From NCBI GenBank assembly GCA_903884265.1, contig CAISEG010000062.1:1-39861 (forward strand): a DNA stretch of 39,861 bases, in the 5' to 3' direction. The first letter of the stretch is position 1. Every line of letters starts with the position of its first letter. Below, piece after piece: positions 22,659 to 31,358 of this stretch. This DNA is from an uncultured Anaerolineales bacterium (GTDB lineage: Bacteria > Chloroflexota > Anaerolineae > Anaerolineales > Villigracilaceae). The position numbers were made by a program, and so were the translations under genes. The notes below the pieces were generated by a model that was given only the letters and a program-made list of their open reading frames with translations, did not search any database and had not been told where the DNA came from.

Positions 22659-24917
22659 TTACTTTCGGCCCATGGCATCCACGGCAGCAATGGCAGCCAC
22701 CTGGACGATGGCATCCACCTCATCACCGGTTTGCAAGACATGGATCGGGGCCCCCACACCAACCAGCACCGGACCGATTGCCTTGGCATTGCCCAGGCGG
22801 GCCAGCAATTTGTAGGCAATGTTAGCCGACTCGAGCGAGGGGAAGACCAGCACGTTGGCATTCTTGACCGCGCTGAACGGGTAACGCTGCTCGACGATCT
22901 CAGCCACCACCGCTGTATCCGCCTGCATTTCACCGTCCACCTGCATTCCAGGTTCCCGGGCCTTGACGATTGCCACAGCCTTGCTGACCTTTTGAGCCAG
23001 CGGGTGATCAGTGGAACCGAAGTTGGAGAAGGACAGGAAAGCCACGCGCGGCTCAATCTCGATCTGCCTGGCAAAACCGGCCGCCAGGCAGGCGATCTCT
23101 GCCAGTTCCTCAGCGGTTGGATCGACGTTGACAGTGGTGTCCGTGAACAGGAAGACGCGCTCTTCCACGATCATAATGTATACGCCGATGACCAGCGCCG
23201 CCCCTGGGCGGGTGTGATGGACCTGCAGGGCCGGGCGGATGACATCCGGGTATTCGGAGGTCAGGCCGGATACAAAGGCATCCGCATCCCCCATTTTAAC
23301 CATCAGCGGTCCAAGTACGTTCGGTTCGCGCACTCGCTTCTGGGCCTTGGCCAGGGTCATACCCTTTCGGCCGCGCAGTTCATAGTAGGTTTTAACATAT
23401 TCGTCGAACTTGGCAAATTGGTTCGGATCCAGGATCTGGCAGTCGAGTTTGACAGCCAGGTCGGCGGCTTTTTTCTTAATGACCTCCGGGCGGCCAATGA
23501 GGATCGGGATGGCGATCTTTTCCTCCAATACCTGGGCTGCCGCGCGGATGATCTTGAGCTCTTCGCCCTCCGCAAAAACGACGCGCTTCTTCGGTTGGGC
23601 CGATTTGGCTTTGTTCATGAAGAAGTAGCGTACACGCGCTCCCTTGCCTTGCCGGAAGGCCAGTTGTTCGCGGTACTCATCCAGGTCGATCGGCTTGCGG
23701 GCTACACCGGTTTCCATGGCGGCCTTGGCCACTGCCGGGGATTCCCATAACAGCACGCGCGGGTCGAGCGGCTTGGGGATGATGTATTCCCGGCCAAATT
23801 TAAGGCTTTCAACCCCATAAGCGCGCAGGACCGAATCAGGGACATCTTCGCGGGTCAGGTTATATAACGACTGCGAAGCGGCAAACTTCATCTCTTCGTT
23901 GATGGCCCGGGCTCGCACATCCAGTGCCCCGCGGAAGATGAACGGGAAGCCGAGCACGTTGTTGACCTGGTTCGGGTAGTCCGAACGGCCGGTAGCAACG
24001 ATGGCGTCTGGGCGTGCTTCTTTTGCCAGTTCGTACTTGATTTCAGGGTCCGGATTCGCCATGGCGCAGATGAATGGGTTCTCGGCCATCGACTTGACCA
24101 TCTCAGGGGTCAGTACATTGGCTATTGAGAGACCCAGGAAAACATCTGCCCCTCGCACCGCATCTGCTAGGGTGCGGCAATCCGTATCCACAACAAAGCG
24201 CTCTTTATACTTATTCATCCCTTCAGTACGGCCTTTGTAAATGACGCCCCGGCTGTCGAGCATCATAATATTTGATCGTTGGATCCCCCAGCGAATGGCC
24301 AATTCAGCACAGGAAACCGCCGATGCGCCTGCGCCGGAGATGACCATTCGTACGTCTTGGTGCTTCTTGCCGACAATTTCCAGCACATTTGCCAGGGCAG
24401 CCGATGAAATGATGGCTGTACCGTGTTGGTCATCGTGAAAGACCGGAATATCGAGCATTCCTTTGAGCGTCTCTTCGATGTAGAAACATTCCGGAGCCTT
24501 GATGTCTTCCAGGTTGATGCCGCCAAAAGTGGGGGCGATGCAGCGCGCCACGTTGATGACTTCATCCGGGTCGTGGCTGTCCACTTCGATGTCAAACACA
24601 TCTATGTCAGCAAATTTCTTGAAAAGCACGCCCTTTCCTTCCATGACTGGCTTGCCGGCCAATGCGCCGCGGTCGCCCAGGCCGAGGATGGCTGTACCGT
24701 TGGAAAGGACAGCCACAAGGTTGCCTTTTGAGGTGTACTCATAAGCCGCTTCCGGATCCTTCTCGATATCCAGCACCGGCACGGCCACACCCGGCGTATA
24801 GGCCAAACCCAGGTCACGCTGGGTATCCATGGGTTTGGTCGGCACGACGGCGATCTTGCCAGGTTTCCCATTCAGATGATGGTAATCACGGGCATCTTGA
24901 TCAGTGATTTTTGCCAT
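22659..24917 (-). CDS. maeB: NADP-dependent malic enzyme with C-terminal phosphotransacetylase-like domain
   Basis: 752 residues in two parts. The malic domain (about 1-430) has [59 protein letters not shown] (metal and substrate region) and the Rossmann segment [17 protein letters not shown]. From about residue 445 a PTA-like domain follows ([27 protein letters not shown]-type [23 protein letters not shown]). MaeB enzymes convert malate to pyruvate with NADP reduction; the PTA domain is thought to sense acetyl-CoA rather than to catalyse. The start is supported by GGAGGTCC before the ATG. A -10-like GATAAT lies upstream, but no clear promoter can be assigned. Confidence 0.96.
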
Positions 24918-25080
24918 GTAGGACCTCCATTTGGTTTTTATTACTTGATCGTAAGTTTATTATCGCATAATTGATAGATAGGTTGTTAGTTCCTTTTGTC
25001 ACGAAAAAATCAAACGCCTTACCCGTTTCCGGGTGAATTCTTTGTGATTATGTGAGAATCCGACAAGCGAACCGGGATTT

Positions 25081-25093
25081 TATAATGTATAAT
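25081..25093 (+). promoter_or_regulatory. Twin -10 boxes before a structured untranslated region
   Basis: Two perfect TATAAT hexamers lie 7 bases apart (25081-25086 and 25088-25093). The only -35 resemblance is CCGACA at 25060-25065, with a short 15-base spacer to the first box. They would start transcription near 25093-25100, about 380 bases before recX. Confidence 0.5.
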
Positions 25094-25097
25094 AGTG

Positions 25098-25275
25098 TTG
25101 TCTGGATATTGGACGCACCGCTTTAGTATTCAACGTGCTTGGCGGCCACGGCTTGAAACAGACCTCTTGGAAAATCCCGGGTATGCCCCTTGACCCGTAA
25201 CATGGGCATCTTTTATGGGAAGTCTGAACAAAACGAACATGCGGAACAGGACCGGATAGATTTTCTGAAAGACTA
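25098..25275 (+). ncRNA. Candidate structured RNA of unknown class
   Basis: There is no open reading frame of note here, but strong nested pairing. Hairpin A: TTCAACGTG (25129-25137) with CACG-GC-TTGAA (25147-25157). Hairpin B: CAGAC (25159-25163) with GTCTG (25222-25226), enclosing TCCC (25175) with GGGA (25217) and ATGCCC (25183) with GGGCAT (25204). An outer CCGC (25118-25121) can pair with GCGG (25241-25244), closing both into a three-way junction. Twin TATAAT boxes stand immediately upstream. Size and layout could suit a 6S-like RNA or a leader RNA, but I see no sequence signature of 6S, tmRNA, RNase P RNA, SRP RNA or a known riboswitch. The ends are estimated. Confidence 0.45.
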
Positions 25276-25478
25276 AAGACCCCCCTCTCGACCGCATCCG
25301 GTATCTGACCCGTTACCGGTTCCCGATAAAACCATCTATGTCTTTGCCCGGGGTGGGGTGCAGATAGATGGATACCCAGGAGATTTTTCCACAGCCGTGA
25401 CCCCTGATACAGGCGGTTTGCGGCTGTGAATATTTAAGCCTCACCCCTGCTCCCTCGGGCAGGTGGAAATAAAGTTTC
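25276..25478 (+). other. Hairpin-rich untranslated region directly before recX
   Basis: Gene-free. Visible stems: CCGGTA/TACCGG (around 25297-25318), CCATCTAT/ATAGATGG (around 25331-25372), CACAGCCG/CGGCTGTG (around 25390-25430, followed by AATATTT), and CCTGC/GCAGG just before recX. The third could end an upstream RNA. AGGTGG at about 25461 is the likely recX ribosome binding site, at a rather long spacing of about 12 bases. Confidence 0.5.
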
Positions 25479-26135
25479 ATGAGTAAAATTACGGCGATCG
25501 AACCTCAGCAAAAGAACCCCCAGCGGGTGAACATTCATCTGGATGGGGAGTTCGCCTTCGGCCTGGCCCGGATCACTGCTGGCTGGTTGAAGGTGGGTCA
25601 GGAACTGGGCGAAGAGAAGGTTGCCGCTCTACAGGCCGAAGACGCAAATGAAACGGCCTACCAGAAAGCCCTGCATTTCCTGAGTTACCGTCCGCGCTCT
25701 TCGGCGGAAGTACGCCAGAACCTTACGAAACGTGGCACCCCCGAAGCTCTTGTTGCAGAGACGGTGGATCGCCTTCAGCGCGCCGGGCTGGTCAATGACC
25801 AGGAATTTGCCCGGGCCTGGGTCGAGAACCGCAACACCTTCCAACCTCGCAGCAAATCCGCGTTGCGGATGGAATTGCGGCGCAAAGGTCTTAGCGACGA
25901 GATCGTCCAGGTTGTGCTGGACGAAGAGGTGGACGAGGAAGCCCTGGCCTTCGCGGCCGCCCGCAAATATGCGCGGCGCTTGGCGGGTCTGGAATGGCTC
26001 GAGTTCCGCCAGAAGTTAAGCGGATTCCTAGCCCGCCGCGGCTTCTCGTACACCACCCTGTCCCCGGTCGTCTCTGAAGTCTGGAAAGAAACCCGGACGG
26101 CGGATGACGGGGGAACTCTTAATGACAAGGATTGA
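25479..26135 (+). CDS. recX: Regulatory protein RecX
   Basis: 218 residues. The N-terminal ITAIEPQQKNPQRVNIHLDGEFAFGL is the extra domain of long RecX proteins. The three-helix repeats follow: ALHFLSYRPRSSAEVRQNLTKRG, VDRLQRAGLVNDQEFARAWVENRNTFQPRSKSALRMELRRKG and the third repeat RKYARRLAGLEWLEFRQKLSGFLARRGFSY. RecX binds RecA filaments and limits or modulates recombination. recA, its frequent neighbour, is not in this window; instead recX is coupled to rny, whose start lies a few bases past the recX stop. Confidence 0.93.
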   Translation: MSKITAIEPQQKNPQRVNIHLDGEFAFGLARITAGWLKVGQELGEEKVAALQAEDANETAYQKALHFLSYRPRSSAEVRQNLTKRGTPEALVAETVDRLQRAGLVNDQEFARAWVENRNTFQPRSKSALRMELRRKGLSDEIVQVVLDEEVDEEALAFAAARKYARRLAGLEWLEFRQKLSGFLARRGFSYTTLSPVVSEVWKETRTADDGGTLNDKD

Positions 26136-26137
26136 AC

Positions 26138-27667
26138 ATGGACCCTATTATTGCAATTGTAATTGCCGCCCTGACCCTGCTCCTGGGTCTGGCCATCGGC
26201 TTTTTCATCAGCCGGGCTCAAACTGAAAAAGCCCAGCATGGCGCACGTGACAAGGCGGAAAAATTCCTGCAGGAGACGCGCGAACAGGCACGTACCATTG
26301 AATTGCAGGCTCGCGATAATGCCCTCAAGATCTCCCAGGCTGCCGAAGGCGAGATCACCCGTCTGCGCACCGAATTGAATAAGGAAGACGAGCGCCTGCA
26401 AAAACGCCGCGCAGAACTCGACGGCCGGGTGGAAAAACTGGAACAACGCGAACAGACGGTGAATAAGCACCAGAGCGCTGTGGACCGCCGTGCCAACGAG
26501 GTCGAAAAGTTACACGAACAGGAGATGGTGGAACTCCAGCGCGTGGCCCAGATGAATGTTGACGAAGCCCGCACCATCCTGTTGGCTGAGGTGGAGAAGG
26601 ACGCCCGCAATGATATGGCGCGCATCATCCGTCAGATCGAAGCGGAAGCACGCGAAGAGGGCGACAAGCGCGCCCGCAAACTCATTGCCGATTCCATCCA
26701 GCGCGTTGCCACGGATCAAGTGGCAGAATTTACCACCTCGCTTGTACCCCTGCCCAACGAGGAAATGAAGGGTCGCATCGTGGGCCGCAACGGGCGCAAT
26801 ATTCGCGCCTTCGAGCAGGCTGCCGGAGTGGACGTGATCGTCGATGATACTCCCGAGGCCGTGACCATCTCCTGCTTCGAGCCGGTGCGTCGTGAAGTAG
26901 CTCGTCGCGCCTTGGCGCGTCTGATCTTGGATGGCCGCATCCACCCGGCGCATATCGAAAAAGTTTTGGAAGAAGAGCAGAAGGCCGTGGACAAGGTCAT
27001 CGTGGAAGCCGGCGAACAGGCTGCCTTTGATGCTGGCGTCACCGGTCTTCATCCGGAAGTGCTGCGCATGATGGGCCGGCTCAAGTTCCGCACCTCCTAC
27101 GGGCAGAACCAGCTGGCTCACGCCGTGGAAGTGGCAAAACTTTCCGGCATATTGGCAGCCGAATTGGGCGCCAATGAAGATATTTGCCGCCAGGGTGGCT
27201 TCCTGCACGACCTGGGCAAAGCCATGGACCACAATCAGGAGGGCACTCATGCCCTGCTGGGCGCAGAGTTTGCCAAACGTTACGGCGTGAATGCCACCGT
27301 GGTCAATGCCATTGCCGGTCACCACCATGAAGTTGAGCAGGAAAGTGTGGAAGCCGTCATCACCGAATCGGCTGATGCGATCTCCGGCGCCCGTCCCGGT
27401 GCACGTCGTGAGGACCTGGAAGCCTACATCAAACGCATCCGCACGCTGGAAGATATGGCCACCGCCTTCAAAGGCGTCTCGCAGGCCTATGCCATTCAGG
27501 CCGGGCGCGAGGTGCGCATCATCGTCCGCCCCGAAGAGATCGACGATCTGGAAGCAGCCCGTCTGGCCCGCGACATTGCCAAGAAGATAGAAGAGACCAT
27601 GCAGTACCCCGGCCAGATCCGGGTGACGGTCATCCGCGAGACACGTGCAACGGAATACGCGAAATAG
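26138..27667 (+). CDS. rny: Ribonuclease Y
   Basis: 509 residues. One N-terminal membrane helix (IIAIVIAALTLLLGLAIGFFI), a long charged coiled coil (about 30-190), a KH domain (LPNEEMKGRIVGRNGRNIRAFEQAAGVDVIVDDTP), and an HD domain with HDLGKAMDHNQEGTHALLG and AIAGHHHEVE. This is the full RNase Y order: a membrane-anchored endoribonuclease that starts mRNA decay. The ATG at 26138 is preferred because AAGGA lies 7 bases upstream; a TTG at 26132 overlaps the recX stop. A strong terminator follows at 27687. Confidence 0.97.
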   Translation: MDPIIAIVIAALTLLLGLAIGFFISRAQTEKAQHGARDKAEKFLQETREQARTIELQARDNALKISQAAEGEITRLRTELNKEDERLQKRRAELDGRVEKLEQREQTVNKHQSAVDRRANEVEKLHEQEMVELQRVAQMNVDEARTILLAEVEKDARNDMARIIRQIEAEAREEGDKRARKLIADSIQRVATDQVAEFTTSLVPLPNEEMKGRIVGRNGRNIRAFEQAAGVDVIVDDTPEAVTISCFEPVRREVARRALARLILDGRIHPAHIEKVLEEEQKAVDKVIVEAGEQAAFDAGVTGLHPEVLRMMGRLKFRTSYGQNQLAHAVEVAKLSGILAAELGANEDICRQGGFLHDLGKAMDHNQEGTHALLGAEFAKRYGVNATVVNAIAGHHHEVEQESVEAVITESADAISGARPGARREDLEAYIKRIRTLEDMATAFKGVSQAYAIQAGREVRIIVRPEEIDDLEAARLARDIAKKIEETMQYPGQIRVTVIRETRATEYAK

Positions 27668-27724: not shown

Positions 27725-27787
27725 CAGCCCTGTTCTTTTATCAGCCCGTTCTTTTATCAGATGGACACGCCATCTGCTTCATTCCCT

Positions 27788-28249
27788 TCAGGTTCCAACG
27801 AATGGGTTCCCGCACTTCTCCTCCCCCACCCTGGTCTCCGGCCCATGCCCCGAAAGGATGCGCGTTTCGTCTGGCAGCGTAAACACCTGCTTTTGAATGC
27901 TCTCCAACAGCTCATCCAAGTCGCCGCCAGGCAGATCCGTCCGGCCGATGCCACCTTTGAAGATCAAATCACCGCTAAAGAGAACATTTTCTTGCGCACA
28001 ATAGAACATGCAATGGCCCGGCGAGTGTCCTGGTGAATGGCGGACTTGGAACCTGTAACCTCCAACCGAAAGTACCCGGATCGCCGCCAGGTCTACAGAT
28101 GGGAGCGGGCCAAGGGTGAATTCAAACCCCAGCCCTTTGCCCAAGCCATGGTTCTTCAACAATTCAAGGTCGGCGGAATGAAGTGCCACCGGCAGGTCGG
28201 GCCGCTGGAGTGCCTCCACCAGTTCCGCGGCACCGCTGAAATGATCAAA
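27788..28249 (-). pseudogene. 5'-truncated copy of the MBL-fold hydrolase gene
   Basis: The frame is open and aligns with the intact gene at 30720-31358, but it begins at FDHFSGAAELVEALQRP. The first 59 or so codons are missing, including both His residues of the HAHFDH metal motif, so it cannot make an active enzyme. About eight amino-acid differences from the intact copy have built up. It reads into transposase DNA at 28250. An internal ATG at 28219 could start a 143-residue fragment, but no function is expected. Confidence 0.88.
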
Positions 28250-28250
28250 G

Positions 28251-28825
28251 ATATCGTTGTCAAAATCAAAACTAATGATTTAGAAATCATGTTCCGAATG
28301 GACCGCGGCTATTTTGATGAAGAAATTATTGAAACGATCGAATCACTGGGATGCAAGTATTTGATCAAGACCAAAGAATATCTAACCCTTGTTTCTCAAG
28401 TAACGGATCCATCTAATTTATTCGTGACAGGTGATGAGGGCAGGGAAACGGCTGAGCTTTTTACGAAACAAAACGCATGGGACAAAGATCGAAGATTTAT
28501 AGTCTCTTGGGTATTGAAACCAGAATAAGAAAGGGTGCAATTATCTCTCATAGACAGCGACGAATACGATTACTTATTCTTTGTAACCAATACTGAACGC
28601 CCTTCAGAAAAAGTGTTTATTTCTTACGAAAAGCGTGGCAATGTTGAGAATTACATCAAAGAAGCCAAGTATGATGTGGCGGTAGGGCATCATTCATTGA
28701 AATCGTTTTGGGCCAATGAGGCAGTGTTCCAAATGATGATGCTTTTATACAATCTGTTTTTGCTGTTCAAATTCGATTTTCTGGGGATTCAGAATTCAGA
28801 CAGTAAATCAAGACATTTCGTTTGA
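28251..28825 (+). pseudogene. IS1380-like transposase remnant
   Basis: The C-terminal half of a DDE transposase. FRMDRGYFDEEIIETIESLGCKYLIKTKEYL matches the second-acid region of the IS1380 family (R-DSGF type), and ISYEKRGNVENYIKEAKYD the YE-RG-xE-xIkE-K region with the last catalytic Glu, followed by FWANEAVFQMMMLLYNLF. The N-terminal half is missing, cut at the repeat junction. An in-frame TAA at 28526-28528 interrupts it, with the same frame continuing on both sides, so it is a nonsense change, not a frameshift. Base composition is AT-richer than the neighbours. No terminal inverted repeats could be identified. Confidence 0.8.
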
Positions 28826-30614: not shown

Positions 30615-31181
30615 TATCAGAGCAGGGCGACCCGGCGGGTCGCCCTGCTCTTTTTTCAGCCCTGTTCTTTTATTAGCCCGTTCTTTTATCAGATGGACAC
30701 GCCATCTGCTTCAGTCCCTTCAGGTTCCAACGAATGGGTTCCCGCACTTCTCCACCCCCACCCAGGTCTCCGGCCCATGCCCCGAAAGGATACGCGTCTC
30801 GTCTGGCAGCGTAAACACCTGCTTTTGAATGCTCTCCACCAGCTCATCCAAGTCGCCGCCAGGCAGGTCCGTCCGGCCGATGCCACCTTGGAAGATCAAA
30901 TCACCGCTAAAGAGAACATTTTCTTGCGCACAATAGAACATGCAATGGCCCGGCGAGTGTCCTGGCGTATGGCGGACTTGGAACCTGTAATCTCCAACCG
31001 AAAGTACCCGGATCGCTGCCAGGTCTACAGACGGGAGCGGGCCAAGGGCGAATTCAAACCCCAGCCCCTTGCGCAGGCCATGGTTCTTCAACAATTCAAG
31101 GTCGGCGGAGTGAAGTGCCACCGGCAGGTCGGGCCGCTGGAGTGCCTCCACCAGTTCCGCAGCACCGGCGAAATGATCAAA
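30615..31181. repeat. Right copy of the 567-bp direct repeat
   Basis: Pairs with 27683-28249 (offset 2,932). In this copy the hydrolase gene continues intact past the repeat end to its start at 31358, and the rny-type terminator hairpin with six T residues lies at 30619-30656 although no rny copy precedes it. Confidence 0.93.
30619..30656 (+). terminator. Second copy of the rny terminator
   Basis: Same 15-bp stem and six T residues as at 27687-27724. In its present place it can stop plus-strand transcription from the MFS gene before it runs antisense into the hydrolase gene. Confidence 0.85.
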
Positions 31182-31358
31182 ATGGGCGTGGGTATACCAG
31201 AGCTGGTCGATCTTCCAGCCGCGCTTCTGCGCTTCAGTCGTGATAACCCGGCCGTCCCAGGCCGGGTCGATCACCGCCGCCTCACCTGAGTTGGGGTCGG
31301 CGATCAGGTAACAATTCGTGGAAGCGGGGCCAAGAACCAGGGGGATGATTTCAAGCAT
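30720..31358 (-). CDS. MBL-fold metallo-hydrolase (glyoxalase II-like, YcbL type)
   Basis: 212 residues. MLEIIPLVLGPASTNCYLI is the typical start of small glyoxalase II-like hydrolases. The metal motif is THAHFDH (His57, His59, Asp61, His62), with further ligands in HTPGHSPGH and LFSGDLIFQGGIGRTDLPGGD, and SGHGPET near the end. It is likely a dimetal thioester or lactone hydrolase in the cytoplasm; the substrate is unknown. The ATG at 31358 has GGAG 8 bases upstream; the longer in-frame ORF to 31688 runs inside the MFS gene and is rejected. It starts 2 bases after the MFS stop, so it is the third gene of an operon. Its 3' part is duplicated at 27788-28249. Confidence 0.93.
   Translation of the reverse strand: MLEIIPLVLGPASTNCYLIADPNSGEAAVIDPAWDGRVITTEAQKRGWKIDQLWYTHAHFDHFAGAAELVEALQRPDLPVALHSADLELLKNHGLRKGLGFEFALGPLPSVDLAAIRVLSVGDYRFQVRHTPGHSPGHCMFYCAQENVLFSGDLIFQGGIGRTDLPGGDLDELVESIQKQVFTLPDETRILSGHGPETWVGVEKCGNPFVGT

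Follow-up and report, generated by a model that had tools for sequence, protein, structure and literature searches.

The gene-free interval that precedes recX and rny, the gene of RNase Y, in an uncultured member of the Anaerolineales raises the question whether it encodes a structured RNA and, if so, what this RNA would do for the two genes behind it. The window, by which we denote the entire stretch of 39,861 nucleotides that was analysed, belongs to an assembly of 1.66 Mb with a completeness of 71%. Its list of open reading frames contains no gene between 24917, the start of a divergent malic enzyme-type gene on the minus strand (22659–24917), and the beginning of recX at 25479, and TATAAT boxes are located at 25081–25086 and 25088–25093. 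The gap and the twin boxes had both been pointed out in a preliminary description of the sequence, which had suggested a new structured RNA that might act as leader of a recX-rny operon. Of the two boxes, the second alone occurs generally in relatives, where every family member examined carries a TATAAT upstream of the 3' end of the RNA, mostly 300–370 nt before it. Beginning at this second box, the leader has a length of about 340 nt (Table 1).

Other features of the window were noticed in its vicinity. A similar box, UAGUUCC(U/A)UUUGUCAC, recurs close to the beginning of the divergent malic enzyme gene, at about 24985–25020 in the window and at the corresponding location in several further genera; it is possibly the promoter of this gene or the site of a regulator. 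Further downstream, a stretch encoding a hydrolase of the metallo-beta-lactamase fold was recognized by eye in two near-identical copies (27757–28219 and 30689–31290), as were transposase-like reading frames at 28037–28825; the arrangement suggests either an effect of the assembly or a duplication around an insertion element.

Conservation and genomic position of the leader

BLASTN searches of 152 family genomes detected the stretch in 12, in all cases upstream of recX. From these 12 leaders, we built the covariance model R1, which comprises 299 positions and contains no recX sequence, and which, when run against 400 genomes of the order, matches 91 at a single place each. The preliminary description had named a lack of conservation in relatives as one observation that would speak against its proposal; these matches document the opposite. 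We inspected 90 of the matching places, 89 of which could be evaluated since one contig ends too early. In 88 of the 89, the end of the RNA is found between –10 and +121 nt from recX, with rny following wherever the contig extends far enough; one weak match (E 8e-4) is not accompanied by recX. Since R1 was constructed without recX sequence, the adjacency to this gene independently confirms the homology of the element and its location in cis. The 3' hairpin described below is also present before recX in five family members that have no R1 match among the matches listed (L109, L110, L112, L183 and L190), and the true frequency of the element is thus probably higher than counted.

A search of the 4227 families of Rfam, which include the T-box and the cobalamin riboswitch, returned no match for the window at the gathering score and, at E-values up to 10, the only matches of the window and of 11 homologous loci were to Xist_exon1 and sucA and are attributable to chance. 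This covariance-model search, which had been advised in the preliminary description, agrees with its statement that the sequence does not resemble a known RNA class. A look-alike of the core of the cobalamin riboswitch (GAAAAUCC-GGG-GCCCC), noticed by eye, was dropped as no homolog reached an E-value of 10. A BLASTN search of plasmids with the stretch found no match, and a literature search revealed no paper that would join recX, RNase Y and Chloroflexi and, among the results listed, none on the leader. As a whole, the leader folds modestly better than shuffled sequences (z –2.2). The stretch is a real, conserved and structured 5' leader of recX-rny that has no family in Rfam, with conservation, position and absence from Rfam bearing out the new RNA proposed in the preliminary description, and conservation and position its reading as operon leader.

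Helical organization of the leader

The leader is predicted to fold into a series of helices that are listed in Table 1 together with the flanking elements. In close relatives, P1, P2, P4, P5 and P6 are paired to 81–97%, with several pairs changed on both sides, and the helix model as a whole is paired to 89.9% compared to 31–52% when slid by 1–3 columns. The same order of helices (P1, P2, P4, P5, P6, P7) is found in a separate genus (g26) with a RecX identity of roughly 58–64%, where the model is paired to 88.5% compared to 29–49% when slid, and where the counterpart of P5, formed in other genera by GUGAAGUC with GGCUUCAC, is paired to 95%. Between genera, the sequence of the leader core has strongly diverged. 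The GUUUAA tail and UUGAAAC, which were considered as a further pairing, are both nearly invariant. Three loci (L044, L025 and L009) carry large insertions inside the RNA that add hairpins close to P7 or within the loop of the terminator, which suggests that the tips of P7 and of the terminator hairpin may be free to vary.

Table 1. Features of the leader and its surroundings in the window.
Feature	Position	Strand	Basis
Twin TATAAT boxes; the second (25088–25093) is the likely –10 element	25081–25093	+	Read from sequence; box upstream in relatives
Leader RNA; start placed from the –10 box; conserved core 25142–25439	25100–25439	+	BLASTN and covariance-model matches in relatives; alignments A2, A4, A5
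S1 GGCCACGGCU, 5' strand of putative long-range helix P1 (antiterminator)	25144–25153	+	Complementary to 25393–25402; swap tests
P2 5' strand CUCUUGG, partner 25376–25382	25164–25170	+	88% paired, both sides change
P4 hairpin (GCCC/GGGC)	25185–25207	+	Close relatives 89% paired; another genus has CUCCC/GGGAG as counterpart
P5 5' strand GGGAA, partner 25320–25324, register uncertain in the window's genus	25217–25221	+	81% paired
P6 hairpin (CCGGUA/UACCGG)	25298–25319	+	91% paired, both sides change
P7 hairpin (AUCUAU/AUAGAU)	25334–25369	+	Pairs read from sequence; counterpart 87% paired in g26
P2 3' strand CCAGGAG, partner 25164–25170	25376–25382	+	Same pairing evidence as for the 5' strand
Terminator-like 3' hairpin (CACAGCCG...CGGCUGUG)	25390–25428	+	z –5.5; 97–98% paired in relatives
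S2 AGCCGUGACC, shared strand, pairs with S1 (P1) or S3 (3' hairpin)	25393–25402	+	Complementarity, swap tests
U-rich tail after the hairpin, AAUAUUUAAG in the window, often UGUGUUUAA-like in relatives	25429–25438	+	U counts
recX, first gene under the leader	25479–26135	+	ORF; adjoins 88/89 evaluable model matches
rny (RNase Y), second gene	26138–27667	+	ORF; after recX in 63/63 class-level loci

This organization differs from the one drawn in the preliminary description. Several of the stems postulated there do exist, but the folding of its two main hairpins is no more stable than that of shuffled sequences (25159–25226, z –0.3; 25129–25157, z +0.5), and their outer helices are formed in only 52–60% of the alignment cells of relatives. 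Within the first hairpin, the inner portion with the GCCC/GGGC stem and its neighbours is retained at 81–89%, but the outer helix is not. With hairpins at the level of shuffles and outer stems that are not conserved, the three-way junction loses its support in the form in which it was proposed. Overlooked at that stage were the hairpin at 25390–25428 and the long-range complementarity of 25144–25153 with 25393–25402.

A 3' hairpin that shares a strand with a probable long-range helix

The 3' hairpin is the strongest local element tested, with none of 200 shuffled sequences folding as well, and its S2×S3 stem is almost invariant in relatives. In the tail following it, 79 family members average 4.9 U per 8 nt, a middling value for a terminator, and the sequence found in the window is poor in this respect, whereas in other families of the class the tail mostly contains 5–7 U. 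The distance from the hairpin to the start codon of recX is at most 15 nt in 51 of the 79 family genomes. A Shine-Dalgarno-like motif is absent from all 51 but present in 17 of the 28 genomes with a more remote start; in the window, recX begins 50 nt downstream of the hairpin and is preceded by a GGA motif. This relationship between distance and motif suggests that the hairpin may mask the start codon in many species and terminate transcription in others. By either route, the hairpin is likely the OFF form of the leader and P1 the ON form.

The S2 strand of the hairpin is complementary to S1, a segment residing about 250 nt upstream, with which it could form 9 of 10 pairs with a single mismatch in the window, and the core of this helix P1 is paired to 96.6% in close relatives. 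Since S2 is required in both structures, P1 and the hairpin are mutually exclusive. When either state was enforced in 78 leaders, the predicted energies of the hairpin relative to P1 showed a median difference of –2.0 kcal/mol, with an interquartile range from –5.2 to +3.1 kcal/mol, and the two states are thus a balanced pair of nearly equal predicted stability.

We have investigated the specificity of this interaction in 63 distinct combinations of S1, S2 and S3 by exchanging partners between leaders. The native S1×S2 duplex has a mean energy of –15.9 kcal/mol, a value that was reached in none of 5000 permutations, compared to –12.7 kcal/mol with permuted partners. S2×S3 is likewise stronger in native than in swapped combinations, and the non-pairing control S1×S3 gives no signal; these permutation tests ignore the relatedness of the sequences. 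At position 6, S2 changes together with both of its partners, with S1, S2 and S3 carrying U, A, U in 22 cases, A, U, G/A in 24 and G, C, G in 3. On a tree of RecX and RNase Y, this change corresponds to only about two events. The counting of sequences has thus overstated the covariation, and we therefore rely on the duplex swap tests. In phylogenetically independent pairs, the native S1×S2 duplex outperformed the swapped one in 12 cases and was inferior in 5 (median sign p about 0.10), with the control being even; S2×S3, whose stem hardly varies, gave no signal in this test. At the level of the class, an upstream complement to the 5' strand of the terminator reached p<0.05 in 13 of 52 loci where 2.6 would be expected, thus in a minority of loci, and in a two-way-centred comparison of 45 loci the terminator strand is better complemented by its own leader than are the strands of other species (z 3.7, 6 of 20,000 permutations). 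Together, we regard the long-range helix P1 as probably real, with the tree-corrected support being moderate.

The recA-recX-rny locus in the class

Outside the family, we have identified 63 recX loci in other families of the class. In all of them, recX is followed by rny, and recA was detected immediately upstream of recX at 42, separated from it by mostly 280–850 nt. In 45 of the 63 loci, recX is preceded by a strong intrinsic terminator, which typically reads AGCUGUGGCC...GGCCACAGCU-UUUUU and is the most widely conserved piece of the element. A class-level alignment (f56) was left out of the evidence because one of its loci, L119, is in the wrong orientation. In f9, another family of the same order, weak R1 matches are located behind the end of recA and ahead of recX, with RecA being recognized by its C-terminal sequence, which was afterwards used as query; at five of its loci (L087, L092, L096, L097 and L101), we observed the element in the recA-recX spacer with an S1-like 5' strand after the end of recA. 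In the sampled loci of other Chloroflexota classes, the spacer, where recA was found, comprises 40–232 nt and contains at most a simple terminator. In three loci from these classes (L196, L199 and L203), the order recA-recX-rny is retained, the spacer is short and its terminator simple, and these loci offer a natural outgroup for the origin of the long leader. In the family of the window, the link to recA is missing and a promoter is present instead. In the simplest history, for which we infer the direction, a recA-recX terminator would have grown into a long leader in the class, before recA became unlinked and a promoter was gained in the family of the window.

Proposed mechanism and competing explanations

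The anatomy of the leader is reasonably supported by its conservation, position, complementarity, mutual exclusion of structures, near-equal energies and the class-wide presence of the terminator. We consider it likely that the RNA acts in cis on the recX-rny operon as a leader with two states, which would operate by termination and antitermination or by masking of the start. In this mechanism, transcription would begin just past the TATAAT box and the RNA would fold into a multi-helix domain closed by the long-range helices P1 and P2 (25144–25170 with 25376–25402). While S2 is held in P1, the hairpin would not form and RNA polymerase would proceed, which also would free the way for ribosomes where the start codon of recX lies directly behind the hairpin. 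Opening or loss of P1 would allow S2 to pair with S3, and the resulting hairpin would stop transcription at the U-rich tail or cover the start of recX. We infer the assignment of the ON and OFF states and the action of the hairpin in vivo from this arrangement. As for the signal, our leading guess, offered tentatively and by analogy, is a feedback by RNase Y, whose binding or cleavage of the leader would remove S1 and let the hairpin form; cleavage of the segment that separates S1 from S2 would release S2 for this purpose. A small molecule or other ligand appears unlikely as signal, and a fixed partial attenuation that follows no signal somewhat unlikely. Since recX and rny are linked in all class loci, recX would be equally a candidate for the target of the leader as rny.

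A hairpin that merely lowers the expression of recX-rny, either as partial terminator or as remnant of a recA-recX spacer, with the upstream domain serving stability or folding and no switch involved, would account for the simple terminators with short spacers in other Chloroflexota classes, for the terminator being the most widely conserved piece and for the near invariance of the S2×S3 stem. A plain terminator would, however, require neither the approximately 250 nt of upstream domain with paired helices that is kept over many genera nor an S1 that tracks S2, and we thus find this explanation doubtful. The P1-gated anatomy, with conserved segments in the junction (UGGAAAAUCC and GGGUACGCCCC) and a closing helix that shares a strand with the terminator, could equally belong to a riboswitch, where the domain would bind a small molecule or ion that steadies P1 and turns on recX-rny. 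The sole gene context of recX-rny suggests no metabolite though, none of the Rfam families matches and the core sequence diverges strongly between genera, which makes a riboswitch rather unlikely.

Its own promoter, the terminator-like end and a single copy per genome would also fit a gene for a free small RNA that happens to be located upstream of recX. We regard this as improbable, as the adjacency to recX is fixed even where recA instead of a promoter is found upstream, as the proximity of the recX start to the hairpin in the 51 genomes described above implies that the leader runs into the gene, and as a stable free RNA would have no need for a strand shared between P1 and the hairpin. A diverged 6S RNA, which the preliminary description had put forward as alternative, or another housekeeping RNA would fit an RNA that is single-copy, structured and absent from Rfam. 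Besides lacking any Rfam match at the leader, carriers of the element contain the true RNAs at other sites: of 41 family genomes, 35 have 6S RNA (RF00013) at a separate locus, among them the carriers G142, G077 and G078, and RNase P RNA (RF00010) was likewise located apart from the element in 51 of 61 genomes of the order, again including carriers such as G142. These separate copies refute both 6S and RNase P RNA, leaving a housekeeping RNA extremely improbable. Finally, some start codons reside inside the leader, but alignments A4 and A5 contain no conserved start codon that would open a frame of conserved length, and attenuation by a leader peptide is thus very improbable.

Discussion

Intergenic terminators between recA and recX are known in Escherichia coli and other bacteria, and recA-recX spacers are usually regarded as simple terminators. 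The element described here has in common with them the hairpin before recX and, in most families of the class and in the f9 relatives, the location after recA. It differs by the long leader in front of the hairpin, by an upstream complementary strand that could disarm it, by rny following recX and, in the family of the window, by a promoter where others have recA. With terminator/antiterminator leaders and P1-gated riboswitches it shares a strand common to a domain-closing helix and a terminator-like hairpin, and near-equal predicted energies of the two states, whereas the lack of an Rfam match and of a known ligand, the single gene context and the unusual length of the domain set it apart. 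The 5' UTR of E. coli rne, by which RNase E autoregulates, is likewise a long structured leader of the gene of a decay endonuclease, although enzyme and RNA are unrelated and we know of no terminator switch in it. RNase Y of Bacillus subtilis autoregulates via its own transcript, whose decay proceeds by cleavage in the 5' UTR and early open reading frame (PMC10303841). This offers a precedent for control of the same gene through its transcript; the abstract of that paper makes no mention of a two-state leader, and in our case recX comes first and cleavage would be hypothetical.

In the loci described here, the recA-recX spacer is a long conserved RNA that probably is able to disarm its own terminator. 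In one large family, this RNA is found apart from recA behind its own promoter, which permits a comparison of leaders with and without recA upstream. The alignment and covariance model are ready for use in tests, in a phylum where, to our knowledge, little RNA regulation has been studied. We tentatively propose a new class of regulated leaders in Anaerolineae that would be placed between recA and recX-rny, or replace this link, and that may serve as one switch for RNase Y and RecX in response to RNase Y itself or a ligand. The main decay endonuclease and a modulator of RecA would thereby come under one RNA element and, if this is true, the cell would tie its capacity for RNA decay and its control of recombination to a single RNA switch.
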